A stretch of 10,266 nt of DNA from Candidatus Methanoperedens sp. (GTDB taxonomy: Archaea; Halobacteriota; Methanosarcinia; Methanosarcinales; Methanoperedenaceae), in NCBI GenBank assembly GCA_028679855.1, contig JAJRAP010000002.1, positions 1 through 10,266 of the forward strand, in the 5' to 3' direction. Under the pieces are notes generated by a model. The model saw nothing but the letters and a program-made list of their open reading frames with translations. It did no database searches and had not been told where the DNA came from. Both the position numbers and the translations under genes were made by a program. Below, piece after piece: positions 2,774 to 10,266 of this stretch (position 1 is its first letter; every line of letters begins with the position of its first letter).

Positions 2774-2882
2774 CTTTATGAAGAAAACTTTCACTGTGAT
2801 CGGGAAGTAGCACGCCTGCCCCAGCCAAACACTGCGACCTAAAAAGAAGGAAAAAAGTCATCGACATAGAGGACTTAAGGTA

Positions 2883-2890
2883 TTTATACA
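2883..2890 (+). promoter_or_regulatory. Candidate TATA box for the XPB operon
   Basis: TTTATACA lies only 15 bp upstream of the first ATG of the operon. With normal archaeal TATA-to-start spacing, transcription would begin at about 2908-2913, on or just inside the annotated start codon. This suggests either a leaderless mRNA translated from ATG 2912 (Met3) or another, unseen upstream promoter. Confidence 0.45.
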
Positions 2891-2905
2891 AATAGGTGCG
2901 ATTGA

Positions 2906-4303
2906 ATGGATATGCAAATTATGTTGAAGCAGATGTGCAAAAATGATCTCAATGACTCCGATATTAAAGCAATCTGCAAAAGCCGTGGTTTTCCTGCTAA
3001 GGAGGCGACTTCTCGTGACATTTTTGAAAACTTCTTCATCTCCACGATTGGCATAAAGGAAGCACTGAACTCATTAACCTATGAGGAAGTTGTATTCCTC
3101 CACTTGCTCAATAAGATAAACAAAGAAGTTGATATCGAGTACTTCGAGAGACTATACGGCTGCGCAAAATATGCGAGCGGGTATGATTACGGGACTTTTA
3201 CCCAGCAGTATAAAGAAACATTCAAAAAGGTGAAGAATAATCTGGTGCAAAAGGGTGTGCTCATTATCATAGAGCAAGAATCGTATACCGGCTCTGCCAG
3301 GATGGAACGCTGGCGATTTCGTTTTCCTCCGGAATTCGGAGAGTTTCTTCCACCTGTTGTCAGAGCTTCGAAATTTAAAGAAGCCGGGGATTTCAAGAGA
3401 GAAGTATTGCGTGATAAACTGCTGGAGATTATTAGAGGGGAGCAAAAACCATCTCCTTTATCAAAAAAAATATCTTTCACACTCACTATCAAAGATGGCG
3501 ATCTGTCTATTGGAGCTGAAAAGTTCAGAGTAAGTCGCCTGTTGGAATGGCAGCAAACCTGCTGGCGTGCGTCCATTGAAGCAAATACTCAGATGCATAG
3601 TGGCGATATGGCTCCCATTGAAGTTACACTCTATGCACTCTCACAACTTAAAGAGCATGAATGGCTGCCCGCAGATGGTCTCGCGGTGATGCTTAAGATC
3701 TTTACAGGAGAGACGGCGGATCACCCCTGTGAACAGATCTGTGAGGCGGGCTGGGAGTGGGGCTGCCTGGTAAAAGTTGTGGTAGATGGAAAGGCATACT
3801 ACCGGTTACCTGACGATCCTCTCGAAGATGCGACTTCATCTCCGCCTGAGCATTATCTACAGATCGAGCCCGACGGTACAGTAGCTGTGAATCTGATGAC
3901 CATTCCGTACACCGCAATGGAAGTGCTGGCTTCGGTTGCAATTCTGGATGTTCATAATTCCAATCTGCGAGCGACCGCCAGCCTCATCAAGATCGGGAAT
4001 GCGCTTATGGCAGTTCGGAAAAAAAATGCTTTTGAGTGGCTCAGAGAGAATTCATCCGTTTTTCGCACCGCAATCGAGATGGCGCAAAAGAGATGGGGTA
4101 AACAGATAATTCATGAAGACCTGATGATTGCACGGGTAAAAGATCTGAGCCTTAAGGTGCAGATTGAAAACTCATTTGCTGATTCGCAAAGCCTTGTATC
4201 GCTTCCAAATGATTATATCGCATTTCCATGTGACCAACTTATGGCGATACAAAAACTTGTGGAGATGTCAGGGCATGTGATCAAGAAGGCGGGGGCAAAA
4301 TGA
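2906..4303 (+). CDS. XPB-operon protein 1: winged-helix and XPB clutch (Helicase_C_3)-like protein
   Basis: A 465-residue cytoplasmic protein with no signal peptide or membrane helix. Residues about 55-150 look like a winged-helix unit ending FRFPPEFGEFLPP (138-150). Residues about 238-302 look like a second small helix-and-wing unit. Residues 317-395 resemble the XPB/Ssl2 N-terminal 'clutch' domain: strand LQIEPDGTVAVNL (318-330), helices, then NSNLRATASL (351-360). The tail (about 396-465) resembles the end of bacterial XPB-partner proteins such as mycobacterial Rv0862c, from memory. No nuclease or ATPase motif is visible. It is first of three coupled genes and its stop overlaps the next ATG (ATGA, 4300-4303). 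The start is uncertain: ATG 2906 has AGGTG 7 nt upstream (2894-2898), while the TATA position favours ATG 2912. Probable role: a p52-like partner or regulator of the XPB helicase encoded last in the operon. The coding call is firm; the role is inferred. Confidence 0.9.
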   Translation: MDMQIMLKQMCKNDLNDSDIKAICKSRGFPAKEATSRDIFENFFISTIGIKEALNSLTYEEVVFLHLLNKINKEVDIEYFERLYGCAKYASGYDYGTFTQQYKETFKKVKNNLVQKGVLIIIEQESYTGSARMERWRFRFPPEFGEFLPPVVRASKFKEAGDFKREVLRDKLLEIIRGEQKPSPLSKKISFTLTIKDGDLSIGAEKFRVSRLLEWQQTCWRASIEANTQMHSGDMAPIEVTLYALSQLKEHEWLPADGLAVMLKIFTGETADHPCEQICEAGWEWGCLVKVVVDGKAYYRLPDDPLEDATSSPPEHYLQIEPDGTVAVNLMTIPYTAMEVLASVAILDVHNSNLRATASLIKIGNALMAVRKKNAFEWLRENSSVFRTAIEMAQKRWGKQIIHEDLMIARVKDLSLKVQIENSFADSQSLVSLPNDYIAFPCDQLMAIQKLVEMSGHVIKKAGAK

Positions 4304-6012
4304 TGGAACCAAAACCAAACCTGACTCCCACAAATATCGACGGACTGAGCGTCTTTTCCAACCAGTATGATCTGCGCCATGATCTGCACGCTTTTATTGA
4401 ATATGTTCATGATCGCGAGGTAAAACGGTCACACCGAAGCAATGAGTTGAGCGGATCTGACACAAAGCGATTGGCAAAACTTATGAGCGCTTCTTATGCA
4501 ATAGAAGAAGTAGAAACAAAAGGATATTCTGAGTGGATAAATTATGTCGATGAACTAGCGCTTCTATTCAAGTTCGTAAAATATGACACTGAGGGGACAT
4601 ATGCCGGATACACCAGTCGTGAACCATCATTTCCTGACAATTACATTGAATTTGATGCCAAAAGATATGAAGAGTTCATTGATCTACCACTTATAGAGCA
4701 GGAGAAGAAGCTTCTGGATATATTAGTAAAAAATTATATTGATGGTAAAAATGAGTTTTATGTTACAAGTGTGCTGGGCAGGCTATCCGGTTTCTCGACA
4801 TGGGGATCAGCGACTGGTATTATGCCGGGATTGGATTTTGCCAAACCAAGGCGATTTCTTATTGAGATTTTGCAATCCTGTAAAGCCGGTGTCTGGTACA
4901 CTACCTCCTCATTGATCCAATACCTGAAAGAGCATCATCCATTCTTTCTTATCCCGCAGAAGCCCAAGTATGAATATGAACATGATGCAAAGGACGGTCG
5001 ATATGGCAATTTTCGGGAGGAAAAGGAAAAGTGGGGTCGGGGGACACATATTCCGGAGCATGATGCGGATGCGTTTCTGCGGGTGGAAGGTCGCTATGTG
5101 GAACGATTCCTTGAAGGATTACCTCTTATTTTAGGATATATCGAGGTTGCCTATTCCAAAATAGAGTATAAGGGACTCCTGCCTGAAATGAATCAGCTTC
5201 TGGCGTTTCGAGTCAATGATAAGTTCTTGCACGTGATGAGCGGTGAAATCATAGAGCCCAAAGTTACAGTGCAGCCGAATTTCGAGGTGCACGTGGAATC
5301 GGAATTATATCCGGTCCGGACTCTTGCGCAATTGACAAAACTTGTAGATGTTGTAGCAAAGGATAGAACAAGCATCCTGAAACTTCAAAAAAAGAAAGTT
5401 CTAACCCAATTGAGCCAGAGAGAAGACCTTGATGTGATCAAGCTCCTGGAGAACATAAGTGGCAAGAAACTGCCACAGAATGTTCGAATCGAACTTGAAG
5501 AGTGGATCGGGGTTTCAGAAGCGTTTACTCTGTATGAGAAGGTTGTGCTTCTCGAGGGGGACAAAGATCTGCCCGATATCGACCAATTCACAATCGAAAG
5601 TATTTCACCGACGATGAGGATCGTGCATTCACCTGACAGGTTGTTCACGCATCTTGAGCAGAAGGAGTTGATCCCTCTTCACATAAAACATCGCTCATCA
5701 GCACTTACGCCTCTTCCAGACGGTGCACATACAGTCTTTCCCAAACGAGAAACAAGTGTTTCAAAATCAAAAGCAGGAGCAAAAGTAAAGAAACCTGTGA
5801 CAATAAAACGGGAAGTCCAGATCACATTTCACTTTCCAGCAAAAGAATTGATGGAAGAATTCCGCAAAGGACTTATAGCTGCCAGATGCCCTGTTGCTGC
5901 AGATTGGGGCAAATTGACCCTCTCCTTTGCCAGGCAATACGAATCAGAGGCAAAGAAAGTCAGTGAGGCACTTAAACAAGATTATACCATCCAGATCGAG
6001 GATATTGCATGA
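4300..6012 (+). CDS. XPB-operon protein 2: Helicase_C_3/XPB clutch-domain protein, p52-like candidate
   Basis: A 570-residue cytoplasmic protein. The N-terminal half (about 20-250) is helical and charged, with no family I can name. Residues about 258-316 look like a winged helix ending FRVNDKFLHVMSGE (303-316). Residues 321-430 form the clearest XPB clutch-like segment of the two partners: VTVQPNFEVHVES (322-334), DRTSILKLQKKKVL (355-368), then SGKKLPQNV (387-395) and EEWIG (400-404). A Lys/Ser-rich linker (about 486-500) leads to a small C-terminal domain (501-570), perhaps a separate interaction module. Its ATG lies in the ATGA overlap with the preceding stop, and its own TGA overlaps the XPB start, so the three products are likely made in fixed ratio. 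ATG 4303 is an alternative start one codon later. No catalytic motif is visible. By analogy with TFIIH p52, it may bind the XPB N-terminal domain; this is inference. Confidence 0.9.
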   Translation: MMEPKPNLTPTNIDGLSVFSNQYDLRHDLHAFIEYVHDREVKRSHRSNELSGSDTKRLAKLMSASYAIEEVETKGYSEWINYVDELALLFKFVKYDTEGTYAGYTSREPSFPDNYIEFDAKRYEEFIDLPLIEQEKKLLDILVKNYIDGKNEFYVTSVLGRLSGFSTWGSATGIMPGLDFAKPRRFLIEILQSCKAGVWYTTSSLIQYLKEHHPFFLIPQKPKYEYEHDAKDGRYGNFREEKEKWGRGTHIPEHDADAFLRVEGRYVERFLEGLPLILGYIEVAYSKIEYKGLLPEMNQLLAFRVNDKFLHVMSGEIIEPKVTVQPNFEVHVESELYPVRTLAQLTKLVDVVAKDRTSILKLQKKKVLTQLSQREDLDVIKLLENISGKKLPQNVRIELEEWIGVSEAFTLYEKVVLLEGDKDLPDIDQFTIESISPTMRIVHSPDRLFTHLEQKELIPLHIKHRSSALTPLPDGAHTVFPKRETSVSKSKAGAKVKKPVTIKREVQITFHFPAKELMEEFRKGLIAARCPVAADWGKLTLSFARQYESEAKKVSEALKQDYTIQIEDIA

Positions 6013-7667
6013 TATCACAAAAGCCGCTCATCATCCAGAGCGATCGCACTTTGATGCTTGAGGTTGGACACCCGGGGTACGTAGAATGTCGGGACTTTTT
6101 AGTTCTTTTTGCCGAGCTGGTAAAATCGCCGGAGTTTATCCATACCTACAGGGTCACACCACTGTCGCTCTGGAATGCAGCGGCATTGGGTGTGCCATTT
6201 AAAGAGATTGTTGAAGGTCTTGAAGACTTCTCACGTTACGGCATTCCGTCAAATGTCATTGTCGATATGAGGGAGTGGTATGAGACCTATGGTAAGCTGG
6301 TTTTACAGAAAGCCGCACATGATTGCTTAGAGCTTGAAGTGAAAGATTCCCGTATTCTGGAACGAATCCGTAACGATAAGTCATTAGAACACTTTTGGGT
6401 GGATAATGACGGTCACCCGGGACTTTTCATACTGCAAGTCAAACGCGGCGATCTTAAGCACGTATTGATAAAGGCAGGCTACCCTGTCAAGGACCTGTGC
6501 GGATATCTGGATGGAGAACGGTTCGATCTCACTTTGCGCAGCATTGACCTTGACGGTAACACATTTAACCTTCGCGATTATCAAAAAGAGGCGGTAGATC
6601 TGTTTTACTGTGCGGGACGAAAGACGGGTGGCAGTGGAGTGATTGTTCTTCCCTGCGGTTCAGGTAAGACGATTATAGGACTTGGAACTATGGCTCAGAT
6701 ATCAAGCCACACTCTGATCATCGCCACCAATAATGTCTCGGTTCGGCAATGGCGCGATGAACTTCTCTCCAAGACTCACATCGAAGAAACGGATATTGGC
6801 GAGTTTACAGGACGTGTCAAAGAGATCAAGCCAATCACGATCACCACATACCAGATGTTGACATATCGCCGCACAAAGGATGAACCGCTGCATAACCTGA
6901 ACATCTTTACCGAGCATAACTGGGGGCTCATTATATATGACGAGGTGCATATGCTCCCGGCTCCGGTATTTCGTGCAACAACGGCAATCCAGGCAAGAAG
7001 GCGACTTGGGCTGACTGCAACTCTGGTGCGCGAAGATGGTAAAGAGGATGATGTCTTTGCACTGATCGGTCCCAAGCGATATGATGTCCCATGGAAGACG
7101 CTTGAGAGTCGCGGCTATATCGCGGAAGCCATCTGTACCGAGTATCGCGTTCCTCTTTCGGCTGAAGAAGAGCTTAAGTACGCTCATGCTGATAAACGCG
7201 CTAAGTTTCGCATCGCGGCAGAGAACCAGCGCAAGAAAGAGCTTGTGTGTGAACTGTTAGACAACCACGCAGGTGAGAGCATCCTGATCATCGGTCAATT
7301 CATTTCGCAGGTAGAAAAACTTGCCAAAGAATTGGGGCTGCCAATTATCACAGGTAAGACCAGGGATGATGAGAGAGAGAGACTTTATGATGATTTCAGA
7401 CAGGGGCGCATCAAAATACTTGTAGTATCCAAGGTGGCGAACTTTGCCGTGGATCTGCCTGATGCCAGTGTCATGATCCAGGTCTCAGGTACATTTGGCT
7501 CGCGCCAGGAGGAAGCGCAGCGATTGGGGCGGATTCTGCGACCCAAAGAGAGAACATCTCATTTCTATACGCTGGTGTCGAAAGGGACGGTTGAGCAGAC
7601 GTTTGGGACGAATCGGCAGTTGTTTTTGGTGGAGCAGGGGTATAGGTATCAGATCAGGTACTTTTGA
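6009..7667 (+). CDS. xpb: Bacterial-type XPB (ERCC3) superfamily 2 DNA helicase
   Basis: A 552-residue ATP-dependent 3'-5' DNA helicase/translocase of the XPB family. An N-terminal clutch-like domain (about 1-95) starts LIIQSDRTLMLEV (7-19) and holds TYRVTPLSLWN (46-56). A damage-recognition-like region follows (about 105-178). Helicase motifs are all present: FNLRDYQ (186-192), motif I PCGSGKT (215-221, K220), Ia around 236-251, DEVH (311-314), TAT (336-338) with the XPB RED triad R341-E342-D343, SILIIGQ (424-430), motif V from about 470 and QEEAQRLGRILRP (500-512). The Thumb-like segment lies between the two RecA domains, about 383-412. Length and sequence match bacterial XPB (for example mycobacterial, about 540 aa) better than the roughly 450-aa archaeal XPB paired with Bax1, and no Bax1 follows. 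The ATG overlaps the upstream stop (ATGA 6009-6012), with GAGGA at 5998-6002. Likely roles are DNA opening in repair, transcription or defence. Confidence 0.97.
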   Translation: MISQKPLIIQSDRTLMLEVGHPGYVECRDFLVLFAELVKSPEFIHTYRVTPLSLWNAAALGVPFKEIVEGLEDFSRYGIPSNVIVDMREWYETYGKLVLQKAAHDCLELEVKDSRILERIRNDKSLEHFWVDNDGHPGLFILQVKRGDLKHVLIKAGYPVKDLCGYLDGERFDLTLRSIDLDGNTFNLRDYQKEAVDLFYCAGRKTGGSGVIVLPCGSGKTIIGLGTMAQISSHTLIIATNNVSVRQWRDELLSKTHIEETDIGEFTGRVKEIKPITITTYQMLTYRRTKDEPLHNLNIFTEHNWGLIIYDEVHMLPAPVFRATTAIQARRRLGLTATLVREDGKEDDVFALIGPKRYDVPWKTLESRGYIAEAICTEYRVPLSAEEELKYAHADKRAKFRIAAENQRKKELVCELLDNHAGESILIIGQFISQVEKLAKELGLPIITGKTRDDERERLYDDFRQGRIKILVVSKVANFAVDLPDASVMIQVSGTFGSRQEEAQRLGRILRPKERTSHFYTLVSKGTVEQTFGTNRQLFLVEQGYRYQIRYF

Positions 7668-7669
7668 GT

Positions 7670-7768
7670 CTACATAGTCACAGTGTAATTTACTTCCTGT
7701 TCTTCGTTACCGATACATCCTGCCAGTACAGACACAATGATCAAACACAAAACCCATCGTCCATGCAA
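7670..7768 (-). pseudogene. Truncated lipoprotein gene or 32-aa lipopeptide after mqnA
   Basis: A 32-codon minus-strand frame starts at TTG 7768-7766, immediately after and in frame with the mqnA TAA, and ends with TAG at 7672-7670, two bases from the xpb stop. Its product has a basic n-region (HGR, 2-4), a hydrophobic core (WVLCLIIVSVL, 5-15), a lipobox L15-A16-G17-C18, and then an acidic polar start of a mature chain (IGNEEQE, 19-25). GGTGG (7774-7778) lies five bases before the TTG, a good ribosome site inside the mqnA end. So it has start, ribosome site, signal peptide and lipobox but only 14 residues after the cysteine. The best reading is the 5' stub of a lipoprotein gene that lost its body where the XPB operon now ends; a genuine tiny lipopeptide, or chance, is possible. 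Confidence 0.45.
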
Positions 7769-8602
7769 TTAAACCACCATGTCCTGAGCATTATAAAACC
7801 TGAGTTCGACATCGTCCACGATCCCGCATTCTTTTGCATATTTAAAATAAAGCTTCAGGCTCTCCACGCTATCGCTGTCAAAATCATAGTTAAGGGTGTG
7901 AAGGTATTCGCGCATGAATCCGCAATCGATATTTTTTGCACTTCCTATGAAATTGGCTATCTCTCTGACGTTTTCATACGCGTATTCCTTCGACCGCAGG
8001 AGCGAATAAAGGACATGATCAACCTTATCAGGATGCTTCCTCGCGTAATCCTCCCTCACCACCCATAATGCGTACACCATCTTTTTTCCTGTCATCTTCT
8101 TCCATTCATTTCCCAGGTCTGCGATGATGCTGTAGTGACCGATGGCGTTTATGGCGCTGTCACCGATAAGGAGAGCCGCTTCACCCTGCTTGAGCATTTT
8201 ATTGATATCGGTTCCGGGGCACTGTTTAATGTTCACATTCACGCCGTTTTTCCAGAGTATGATCTTTATCAGTGTTGCTGAACTTGCAGTTGTCTCCGGA
8301 ATGCAGAGAGTTTGTCCTTCAAGGTCGGACAGGTCCATCTTCCCATTTGAGCATATCAGGACGCTTTTTGTGAAGTCATTGGAGGTGATGGAAAGCCGTG
8401 GAAGAATGAGAAGGTCATTGCGCTTTGCGTACATGATGGAAGAAATGGGGCTTATATCAAGCTCGCCTTCAAATAGCCTGCGTGCAAGCTCCACTGGATG
8501 GGCTTCTGTGATCTTTATGTCTGGCGCCCTGATCTTTCCATGCTCAAGTGCATAATACGGGAAATCACAATTAGCAAAGGCTATCTTGCCGAGTCGGATC
8601 AT
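7769..8602 (-). CDS. mqnA: Chorismate dehydratase MqnA (futalosine pathway of menaquinone biosynthesis)
   Basis: A 277-residue soluble protein of the MqnA/MqnD family with a periplasmic-binding-protein-like fold. MqnA dehydrates chorismate to 3-enolpyruvyl-benzoate, the first step of the futalosine route to menaquinone. Family features are the N-terminal GKIAFANCDFPYY (5-17, with conserved-position N11), DISPISSIMYAK (49-60), LPRLSI (67-72), TTASSATLIKI (104-114), AALLIGDSAI (142-151) and DLGNEWKKMTG (162-172) followed by ALWVVRED (178-185). These fit MqnA better than MqnD, and the length is typical of MqnA. There is no signal peptide. The ATG at 8602 lies about 25 bp from a TATA box with no strong ribosome site between, suggesting a leaderless mRNA. 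No other mqn gene is visible here. The gene converges on the XPB operon and diverges from the pilin-like cluster. Confidence 0.9.
   Translation of the reverse strand: MIRLGKIAFANCDFPYYALEHGKIRAPDIKITEAHPVELARRLFEGELDISPISSIMYAKRNDLLILPRLSITSNDFTKSVLICSNGKMDLSDLEGQTLCIPETTASSATLIKIILWKNGVNVNIKQCPGTDINKMLKQGEAALLIGDSAINAIGHYSIIADLGNEWKKMTGKKMVYALWVVREDYARKHPDKVDHVLYSLLRSKEYAYENVREIANFIGSAKNIDCGFMREYLHTLNYDFDSDSVESLKLYFKYAKECGIVDDVELRFYNAQDMVV
7774..7778 (-). promoter_or_regulatory. Ribosome binding site for the lipoprotein-leader frame
   Basis: GGTGG on the minus strand, within the last codons of mqnA, lies five bases before TTG 7768. It favours real (present or past) translation of the small lipoprotein-like frame. 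Confidence 0.4.
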
Positions 8603-8626
8603 ACTTCATTAGATTTATGAAAGCTG

Positions 8627-8635
8627 TATATATAT
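8627..8635 (-). promoter_or_regulatory. TATA box for mqnA (leaderless transcript predicted)
   Basis: The alternating run TATATATAT ends 24 bases before the A of the mqnA ATG. At normal archaeal TATA-to-start spacing, transcription would begin at or within a few bases of position 8602, leaving no room for a ribosome site. The repeat is symmetric, so orientation rests on the spacing to mqnA. Confidence 0.6.
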
Positions 8636-8665
8636 TAGTTTGTCGGGCAGCATCAATTCATAACA

Positions 8666-8673
8666 TTTATAAG
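8666..8673 (+). promoter_or_regulatory. TATA box for the pilin-like cluster
   Basis: TTTATAAG predicts a start site near 8692-8697, just before the strong AAGGTGG ribosome site at 8698-8704. This geometry fits a short-leader mRNA translated from about 8712. It stands about 30 bp from the mqnA TATA box on the other strand, a compact divergent promoter. Confidence 0.6.
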
Positions 8674-8697
8674 GGCAAAATAAAGTACACCGCCGAA

Positions 8698-8704
8698 AAG
8701 GTGG
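8698..8704 (+). promoter_or_regulatory. Strong ribosome binding site that points to a CTG start at 8712
   Basis: AAGGTGG is a near-ideal Shine-Dalgarno sequence. No ATG, GTG or TTG lies in the correct frame within normal distance; the in-frame codons at that distance are AAG 8709, CTG 8712 and TTA 8715. The next conventional start in frame, GTG 8745, is 40 bases away. Confidence 0.6.
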
Positions 8705-8711
8705 CATAAAG

Positions 8712-9203
8712 CTGTTACAAAGATTTCTCAAGGACGAGTCGGCGGTGGAAGGTATGCCGATGCGCATCGTTGTCACGGTTGTACTTTTCGCTGTGATACT
8801 CGGTCTTACCGGAAAGGCTGCATCAGACTTTATCGGTGATGTAAAAGAAAAAAAGCTCATGAACGAACTTGACAGGATAGAAAAACACGCCGCAGTAATG
8901 TATATTCAGGGAGGAGCAAGGGACATTAATGATCCCGTGGATCTCCCAGGCACGATGGAGAGCATGCGCGTGCAAATTCCGGACAATGCTGCTTTTGTGG
9001 TGTTCGGAGGAATGCCGGATGGCGCGGCAGATGCACGCACTGACAATGTATATTATTACGTCCTTAATAACGGCAGGGTTCAGGCAAAGTCCTCTATAGT
9101 GCGATTCTCCGGGCATGCTGTGTTTTATCCTGGTGAATATGAACTGGAACTTGAGCTTATCAGGAATAACAATGAAACGTTCGTAGCGATAAGAGGGGTA
9201 TGA
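8712..9203 (+). CDS. Pilin-like single-helix membrane/secreted protein 1 (probable CTG start)
   Basis: I place the start at CTG 8712, giving 163 residues; a conventional start would be GTG 8745 (152 residues). The longer form begins with Q-R-F-L-K-D-E-S-A (3-11), matching the N-termini of the next two genes (M-x-x-F-x-x-D-E-R-A), and is served by the AAGGTGG site 7 nt upstream. A hydrophobic helix follows (about 19-34), then a coiled, charged helix (about 36-60, DVKEKKLMNELDRIEKHAA) and a beta-rich tail with an N-glycosylation sequon (NET) near the C-terminus. This plan, a short polar leader, one N-terminal helix and an extracytoplasmic beta domain, is that of type IV pilin-like proteins; cleavage could follow A11. 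Its stop overlaps the next ATG (ATGA 9200-9203). The family is not recognised with certainty; a minor pilin or pseudopilin is the best guess. Confidence 0.8.
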   Translation: MLQRFLKDESAVEGMPMRIVVTVVLFAVILGLTGKAASDFIGDVKEKKLMNELDRIEKHAAVMYIQGGARDINDPVDLPGTMESMRVQIPDNAAFVVFGGMPDGAADARTDNVYYYVLNNGRVQAKSSIVRFSGHAVFYPGEYELELELIRNNNETFVAIRGV

Positions 9204-9823
9204 GGCGGTTTACTGACGACGAAAGGGCATGGGCTGATTTTTTCATAACACGAATAGGGGTGATATTATTTGCCGCGGTGCTGCTTCTTAGCGCATTCAA
9301 AATATATCCCATGTTCAATGAGCAACAGGCAAGGGCAGGGATGGATGCCGCTGCTTCAGATATCGCATCAAGGATCGAAGCCGTGGACGTCGTGACCGTA
9401 CCCGGTTATAAATATTTCTATGTATTTGATGAAAAAGATAAGAATAAAAGGATAGAGATATCCACTGAATTCGTGGTCGCCCGCTATAATCTCAGCACAC
9501 AGTGGGGGGAACGTGAACTTGTCCACGCAGAGCCTCTGGTCGCGCGTGTTTATCCTCCGAACAGCAATTGGAGCAATACATCAGGTCTGAGGAAAAAGCT
9601 TAGCGACCTTGGCGCAGGGAGAAATGGAGATGCGGTAAGCCCGCTTGATTTTTCGAGGGATAAAGAAATAGTGGATGGGATGTTCAATAATATCGAGGCT
9701 GAGCTTGCCCGTACCCCGTTCGTTCCTGATATGAACCGGTCACTGCTAATCGAAAAAGTAATGATCCATTATAGAGATGGAAATAGAAGTGTGGAGAGGG
9801 ACTATGTCATCATTTATCAGTGA
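9200..9823 (+). CDS. Pilin-like single-helix membrane/secreted protein 2
   Basis: A 207-residue protein in the same plan as its neighbours: leader MRRFTDDERA (1-10), one hydrophobic helix (about 14-36), a helical stalk (about 38-60, NEQQARAGMDAAASDIASRI) and a mixed extracytoplasmic domain. It has five N-x-S/T sequons: NLS, NWS, NTS and two NRS. This suggests exposure at the cell surface with archaeal N-glycosylation. The start ATG lies in the ATGA overlap with gene 1, with GAGGGG (9193-9198) just upstream. It overlaps gene 3 by 20 bases. If an archaeal prepilin peptidase (PibD/FlaK type) processes it, A10 is the natural -1 residue. Haloarchaeal pilus loci carry sets of small proteins of this kind beside PilB/PilC; I recall the similarity but cannot verify it. 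Confidence 0.85.
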   Translation: MRRFTDDERAWADFFITRIGVILFAAVLLLSAFKIYPMFNEQQARAGMDAAASDIASRIEAVDVVTVPGYKYFYVFDEKDKNKRIEISTEFVVARYNLSTQWGERELVHAEPLVARVYPPNSNWSNTSGLRKKLSDLGAGRNGDAVSPLDFSRDKEIVDGMFNNIEAELARTPFVPDMNRSLLIEKVMIHYRDGNRSVERDYVIIYQ

Positions 9824-10266
9824 TGAGCGCGCTATAGTGGAACCGCACGTCGATATGCCTGCAATGGCGCTGGCAGTTGTAGGATTTGTTGTCTTTATCG
9901 CCATAATGTCGCAGGCATACGGGGCATATCAGAACAAGGCTTTCATTTCAGAAAATTACCAGGATGCTTCGAACCTTGCTGAAAAGCTGAGCAGGGAAAG
10001 TACACTCACAGGAAGCATGCGTCCGGATGTTATCGATGCGGTGCGGCTTGAAGCGGTCGGAAATGATCCGAAAGAACTGATGCAAAAATATGGTGTGTAT
10101 TATTACTTTGTGCTCAAGGTTGAGGTGGACACCAAGAGAAGGACATACATCCGGATAATCCAGGATCCCAACATTACAGTATCAAGGTTCGGGATCTCAT
10201 CATCAATACCCGTAACTGTAAGGCTAAACGATGCACAGGAACTTCCGGGCATGCTGACAGTAAAAA
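9804..10266 (+). CDS. Pilin-like single-helix membrane/secreted protein 3, partial (3' end beyond window)
   Basis: ATG 9804 opens a frame of 154 complete codons that runs off the window. It overlaps gene 2 by 20 bases and has GAGAGGG (9794-9800) three bases upstream. The N-terminus MSSFISDERA (1-10) repeats the leader motif of genes 1 and 2, followed by I-V-E-P and a hydrophobic helix (about 19-35). The exposed part includes GVYYYFVLKVEV, a sequon NIT, and near the edge IPVTVRLNDAQELPGMLTV, a beta-strand pair seen at the ends of archaeal pilin-like domains. The RA/IVEP stretch recalls haloarchaeal DUF7285-type pilus-locus proteins (RGQVEPL), from memory. It is likely a membrane-anchored or pilus-incorporated subunit co-translated with the two upstream genes. 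The true length is unknown. Confidence 0.82.
   Translation, partial: MSSFISDERAIVEPHVDMPAMALAVVGFVVFIAIMSQAYGAYQNKAFISENYQDASNLAEKLSRESTLTGSMRPDVIDAVRLEAVGNDPKELMQKYGVYYYFVLKVEVDTKRRTYIRIIQDPNITVSRFGISSSIPVTVRLNDAQELPGMLTVK

Follow-up and report, generated by a model that had tools for sequence, protein, structure and literature searches.

The three genes of the cassette

We analysed a 10,266-nucleotide stretch of the Candidatus Methanoperedens sp. contig JAJRAP010000002.1 (hereafter the window), in which three adjoining genes on the + strand, named here P1, P2 and XPB, make up a cassette containing an XPB helicase/translocase. The open reading frames (ORFs) of P1 (2906-4303, 465 residues) and P2 (4300-6012, 570 residues) are followed by that of XPB (6009-7667, 552 residues), and the successive genes share ATGA stop/start overlaps at 4300-4303 (P1/P2) and 6009-6012 (P2/XPB), as described in an initial annotation of this DNA. 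The convergent gene which that annotation placed at the end of the operon is also present: it is MqnA-like, matches VitK2_biosynth, and lies downstream of XPB at 7769-8602 on the - strand. Upstream of P1, the AT-rich sequence TATTTATACAAATA (2881-2894, + strand) is a possible candidate for an archaeal TATA box.

XPB is a member of a known family. It matches NF045503 (repair_heli_XPB) over its full length with 818 bits, against a curated cut-off of 610, and TIGR00603 with 360.9 bits (cut-off 328.7); ERCC3_RAD25_C is matched at E = 2.1e-43, and the N-terminal, clutch-type Helicase_C_3 domain (PF13625) is found at residues 7-128 (6027-6392, + strand; E = 4.1e-28). The Walker A motif GSGKT, DEVH at residue 311, RED at 341 and motif VI QRLGRILR at 504 are all intact, and the earlier description of the protein as an intact, bacterial-type XPB was borne out. 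Neither P1 nor P2 contains a GK[ST], DExH/D or motif VI pattern, in agreement with their proposed lack of catalytic motifs. The winged-helix-like segments assigned to both could not be substantiated, the only match being a sub-threshold OST-HTH in P2 (E = 0.015).

When each gene was compared with four relatives, the ratio of nonsynonymous to synonymous substitution rates (dN/dS) was 0.35-0.48 for P1, 0.20-0.33 for P2 and 0.10-0.14 for XPB. All three genes are under purifying selection, with XPB evolving most slowly and P1 fastest, and these values, together with a gene order that recurs in many genomes, indicate that P1, P2 and XPB are real genes.

Transfer, decay and distribution

The DNA of the cassette (2839-7668, + strand) is 89.6% identical over 4837 bp to that of G046, a genome from another family, and 89.1% identical to that of the same-genus genome G028; the values for G035 and G054 are 85.3% and 86.5%, and those for two genomes of the ANME-1 group of anaerobic methanotrophic archaea are 86.7-86.8%. 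The elongation factor 2 (EF-2) protein of the window genome is 71.7% identical to that of G046, 90.8% identical over 530 residues to that of G028, and 65.8-66.6% identical to those of ANME-1. Cassette DNA is 85-90% identical where the EF-2 protein is 66-72% identical, and sequence comparison therefore indicates recent transfer of the archaeal cassette, as a unit of about 4.8 kb, across archaeal families and ANME-1. The synonymous divergence (dS) of XPB is 0.31 with G046 and 0.32 with G028.

We sought to delimit the transferred unit. On the left, blastn matches to other archaeal cassettes start at 2839 (two cases), 2840 and 2851, and later, at 2871 and 2905, in two more, placing the DNA upstream of P1 (2839-2905, + strand) within the transferred unit. 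On the right, the homology of relatives that have no cassette at this site (G013, G024 and G011) starts at 7666-7678, next to the XPB stop codon. The flanks 1-2705 and 7677-10264 match the same-genus genome G013, in which there is no XPB match, at 90% and 84%, on two contigs. At 7677-7770 the homology of same-genus relatives resumes inside the apparent start of a lipoprotein- or cupredoxin-like gene (its type judged by eye), which continues in G013 and G024, and the cassette seems to have cut this gene. No terminal repeats or target duplications of at least 9 bases were found at the cassette edges.

Presence of the cassette among relatives is sporadic. Full-length or nearly full-length XPB of this type was found in 9 of 60 genomes, including the genome of the window, and three more (G014, G025 and G047) contain fragments only. 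All three genes are seen in eight of the nine, although in G055 the beginning of the contig truncates P1; the ninth, G058, has a contig that begins at XPB, and one of the two copies in G046 is broken. Decayed cassettes with large internal deletions occur in two same-genus genomes, at 9981-12282 of L040 and 12822-13785 of L041, and their deletions share structure around the same XPB region.

Scanning of genome contigs yielded 72 loci, including one decayed copy (L161); in part of these, genes were called by a simple longest-ORF rule, so that gaps and edges are approximate. The archaeal loci belong to ANME-2/Methanosarcinales, Methanoperedens-like archaea and ANME-1, and the bacterial loci, with best-segment identities of 31-55%, to Chloroflexi, Deltaproteobacteria (including a SeepSRB2 contig), Planctomycetes, Gammaproteobacteria, Verrucomicrobia, SAR324 and Bipolaricaulota. 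P1 lies within two ORFs before P2 at 63 of 65 judged loci (the contig ends at the 7 others), and XPB directly follows P2 at 44 of 66 (contig end at 6 others), so that the gene order is conserved in archaea and several bacterial phyla. Other arrangements include XPB before P1 (L144, L173 and L182) and XPB in divergent orientation beside P1-P2 (L160).

XPB was not seen directly downstream of P2 in 24 genomes, comprising 22 judged loci and two at contig edges. In 20 of them an XPB scoring over the curated cut-off is present in the genome, in two cases only when pieces in one frame were summed, and in one of the 20 (L160) this is the divergent XPB beside P1. Two of the remaining four have a strong truncated XPB piece, directly before P1 in L144, and two have none. 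In a phylum sample of 392 genomes, full-length P2 occurs in 12 and over-cut-off XPB in 20, with 11 genomes containing both (Fisher p = 2.7e-15, uncorrected for kinship); the twelfth P2 genome, G324, has an XPB piece of 488 bits. Since nearly all P2 genomes have XPB, and nine XPB genomes have no P2, the dependence looks one-way: P1-P2 goes with XPB, and XPB can occur without P1-P2.

In a FastTree phylogeny of XPB with midpoint rooting, for which groupings are given without support values, the archaeal cassette XPBs form one clade adjoining Bipolaricaulota, within a group of delta- and gammaproteobacterial and SAR324 sequences. A second group comprises Chloroflexi, many of them cassette-linked, Planctomycetes, Verrucomicrobia, one Desulfobacterales sequence and the other ANME-1 XPBs.

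Relationships of P2 and P1

In mycobacteria, XPB forms a pair with one Helicase_C_3 protein (Rv0861c/Rv0862c). We compared the P2 profile, built from 69 sequences, with a profile of ten single-protein XPB partners of 557-772 residues, six from the ANME-1 side and four from Anaerolineae, and obtained an hhalign E-value of 1e-17, with residues 17-524 of P2 aligned to 181-601 of the partner over about 400 columns. The clutch-like domain of P2 on its own (residues 310-425; 5227-5574, + strand) matched the partner profile at E = 1e-16 and the XPB N-terminal domain at E = 4e-7, as against lowest values of 0.021 and 0.0082, respectively, in 40 column-shuffle controls each. When the P2 profile was run with HMMER over the 392 genomes, it retrieved full-length P2 and eight partial matches (E = 6.9e-15 to 5.5e-11), four of which are the XPB partners of L076, L077, L078 and L093. 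PF13625 scores over its cut-off in all eight of the XPB partners scanned, and Tfb2/p52 (PF03849) gives matches below its own cut-off in the four ANME-1-type partners (best 2.7e-8, 33.6 bits versus 34.5).

P2 itself stands farther from the curated models. Relatives of P2 extend to identities as low as about 30%. PF13625 is matched at E <= 0.1 by 20 of 35 P2 proteins, with a best value of 5.3e-6; the window P2 gives no match to it, and the Tfb2 model has no match in P2. Because of the profile matches to the partners and to the XPB N-terminus, P2 is best described, at the level of sequence profiles, as a divergent branch of the XPB clutch-partner superfamily rather than a member of the Pfam family as it is currently defined, and its proposed role as a clutch-bearing partner is upheld to that extent.

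The ANME-1-type loci L076, L077, L078, L080, L083 and L093 contain another XPB, about 52-55% identical, accompanied by a Helicase_C_3 partner in divergent orientation, with gene edges that are approximate where the longest-ORF rule was used. Of the four ANME-1-type partners scanned, three have a C-terminal WYL domain.

P1 represents a family that is not named in any of the libraries searched. Among 33 diverse P1 proteins the best E-values were 0.0096 in Pfam and 0.0097 in NCBIfam, the most frequent match was shared by five of the 33, and none matched Helicase_C_3. A weak resemblance to XPB was noticed near the C-terminus, where P1 residues 390-460, chosen as the best region, align with XPB 87-161 at E = 5.5e-4; none of 200 column shuffles did as well (lowest 0.0024), while a 100-residue segment of P1 compared with the whole of XPB reached only E = 0.02. 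This is a weak hint of an XPB-like clutch segment in P1. The initial annotation had seen clutch-like segments in both partners: for P2 profile comparison confirms this and extends it to the single-protein partners, with Tfb2 remaining unmatched, and for P1, which it had cast as a second clutch protein, the claim was not sustained. We also considered P1 as a duplicate of P2 and rejected this (hhalign 0.058); the two partner proteins are unrelated, in keeping with the two different partners that had been proposed.

Searched as single sequences against family libraries and PDB, P1 and P2 returned nothing curated. Against PDB, the P1 and P2 profiles gave chance-level matches only, with nothing better than 0.33 for P1 and no TFIIH chain up to E 10 for either. 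Two single-chain structure predictions, made from shallow alignments, were poor, with mean confidence (pLDDT) values of 45.8 and 43.1.

A probable XPB complex and its alternatives

The explanation that we favour, and consider probable, is that P1, P2 and XPB form a mobile accessory three-subunit complex, with P2 coupled through its clutch and P1 as the third subunit, which opens DNA in repair or defence. XPB would be the motor, translocating on double-stranded DNA. P2 may use its clutch to bind the N-terminal domain of XPB, to which that clutch is homologous, and so anchor XPB and tune its ATPase in the manner of p52 in TFIIH. P1, which is family-specific, evolves fast and accompanies P2, would be the third subunit and may guide the complex to its site of action. 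The substrate of such a machine is probably abnormal duplex DNA, which it would open or remodel. That the cassette is mobile, patchily distributed and found in decayed form suggests an accessory trait, such as repair of unusual damage or defence, and the highest dN/dS of the three suggests that P1 is either the subunit on which changing targets act most strongly or the one under least constraint. That the cassette encodes a dedicated XPB machine can reasonably be inferred.

In eukaryotic TFIIH, according to the parts of the source consulted, the clutch of p52 shares its fold with the N-terminal domain of XPB, and the two domains associate as a pseudo-symmetric dimer (PMC6422496), and the XPB ATPase is both stimulated and limited by p52/p8 (PMC7708078, likewise in part). 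The cassette resembles the XPB-p52-p8 module of TFIIH in combining an XPB that has an N-terminal clutch with a separate partner that has a homologous one; unlike TFIIH, its three genes include none for XPD, p44, p62 or p34, P2 has no match to the Tfb2 model, and, as noted, the P1 and P2 profiles find no TFIIH chain in PDB up to E 10. Pairs of bacterial XPB with one Helicase_C_3 protein, including the ANME-1 pair described above, share with it the XPB family (NF045503) and a homologous clutch partner, but here there are two partner genes, P1 being additional, in an operonic and horizontally mobile arrangement, and the window P2 is too divergent for Pfam and has no WYL match. The archaeal XPB-Bax1 helicase-nuclease pair is likewise an XPB with a dedicated partner in an archaeon; in contrast to it, no nuclease family was found among the matches of P1 and P2 within the limits used, and the window XPB has a Helicase_C_3 N-terminus, whereas most archaeal XPBs have a DRD domain in its place according to the portion consulted of a 2012 study (PMC3353954).

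Could the cassette be a defence system against mobile elements, with XPB as a translocase acting on foreign DNA, P2 as the coupling to this motor and P1 as the subunit for recognition of the invader? We regard this as possible but not the likelier course. It would explain the transfer, sporadic presence and decay of the cassette and the fast evolution of P1: full-length XPB occurs in 9 of the 60 genomes, with fragments in three more, the transfer across families and with ANME-1 is recent, and P1 has the highest dN/dS. However, P1 and P2 match no PADLOC model at E <= 1, and XPB matches only those of other helicases (best PbeA, 9.5e-24); no nuclease or toxin subunit was recognised; and P2 was found neither in phage and plasmid records, queried with one bacterial P2, nor in viral contigs, queried with an alignment of archaeal P2. 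The defence-island context raised in the initial annotation is occasional rather than systematic among the 127 cassette neighbours scanned, which yield no enrichment figure, as no control genes were scanned. Good matches occur singly, for example to PtuA and SoFic, to PDC-S02 just downstream of XPB in L163, and to a GajB-like UvrD helicase near the cassette in L148; overall, 200 PADLOC models have a match at E <= 1e-10 in one or more of the neighbours, but none is matched by more than five, and the matches to mad3, the most frequent model, include an ordinary ABC transporter (L163).

The notion that P1 and P2 together correspond to a single Rv0862c-like partner, each making up one half of it, which would reduce the operon to the known XPB plus a split Helicase_C_3 protein, appears improbable to us. 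The first 180 residues of the partner have no counterpart in P2, which covers 181-601, and the P1 gene immediately precedes that of P2; a 23-residue match of P1 50-72 to partner 62-84 was also found (E = 0.0055), but it is very short and weak, and other regions of P1 gave nothing better than 0.06. P1 and P2 together comprise 1035 residues, as against 557-772 in the ten partners, and in some Anaerolineae P1, P2, XPB and a separate partner stand side by side. Least probable by far is a TFIIH-like complex for promoter opening. The cassette is missing from most of the 60 relatives, was recently acquired and is common to bacteria, and the bacterial transcription apparatus differs from the archaeal one; in favour, XPB opens promoters within eukaryotic TFIIH, as described in the part consulted of a 2026 review (PMC13024598).

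A number of observations weigh against the three-subunit complex that we prefer. XPB does not directly follow P2 at 22 of the 66 judged loci, and, of the 20 genomes of the phylum sample with over-cut-off XPB, nine have no full-length P2. The window P2 matches none of the curated families, P1 lacks informative relatives, and none of the neighbours scanned reveals a target. In favour of the complex, XPB itself is the sole Helicase_C_3 match in five of seven archaeal cassette genomes searched, the extra matches being the second, broken XPB in G046 and a below-cut-off P2 in G276; yet, as PF13625 is blind to the window P2, a second, equally divergent partner would escape such a search. Additional Helicase_C_3 proteins are present in several bacteria, and a separate Helicase_C_3-type gene lies beside the cassette in five Anaerolineae loci (four confirmed by Pfam), where P2 may, therefore, not be the only clutch partner.

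Among neighbours of the cassette, these five genes are the exception to the general lack of a conserved fourth gene. As a candidate for such a gene, the widest neighbour group, found at eight loci (six distinct) and at varying distances, was rejected as ordinary; in the two members checked, it belongs to the ABC-transporter ATPase superfamily. The commonest Pfam families, CdhD, ABC_tran and FeS, are each matched by four of the 127 neighbours. Nor is XPB replaced by a common family where it is not next to P2: 13 neighbours from such loci, of 19 scanned, include CobN, PKD, P-type ATPase and further families unrelated to one another.

Which proteins XPB works with in prokaryotes is a standing question in the literature. 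In the parts consulted, the 2012 study states that no p52 homologs had been reported from bacteria and that further proteins may act with bacterial XPB (PMC3353954), and the 2026 review calls XPB function in archaea and bacteria "more elusive" (PMC13024598). Neither the P1-P2-XPB operon and its mobility nor prokaryotic p52-like partners were found in the titles and abstracts of the open-access literature searched, XPB and the P2 superfamily being already known. A conserved operon in which XPB is accompanied by a p52-like clutch protein and by a third subunit supplies candidates for such partners, and the question becomes testable with three small genes; the set of this methane-oxidising archaeon suggests that outside eukaryotes, too, XPB belongs to a machine of several parts, and recent spread between archaeal families, along with relatives in several bacterial phyla, suggests a transferable benefit. 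More tentatively, the cassette may represent an undescribed mobile machine for defence or DNA surveillance in archaea and bacteria, in which a TFIIH-like core of motor and clutch (XPB-P2) is steered by P1 as a rapidly evolving recognition subunit; if so, the eukaryotic XPB-p52 partnership would have a prokaryotic, horizontally spread counterpart with three dedicated subunits.

Several observations concern the surroundings of the cassette. At 2559-7010 of L148, downstream of P2, a 735-residue protein with a weak DEAD match is encoded in the same direction as the GajB-like UvrD helicase (747 residues), and the two are possibly a separate defence pair. In the window, the left flank of the cassette is occupied by a CDC48-type ATPase gene (564-2702, - strand), which is a sporadic extra copy with 79-93% identical relatives in eight same-genus genomes and best matches of about 51-61% outside those eight. 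To the right, 8745-10265 contains a run of small genes with N-terminal hydrophobic segments (judged by eye) and one sub-threshold DUF7311 match, which resemble pilin- or archaellum-type proteins.

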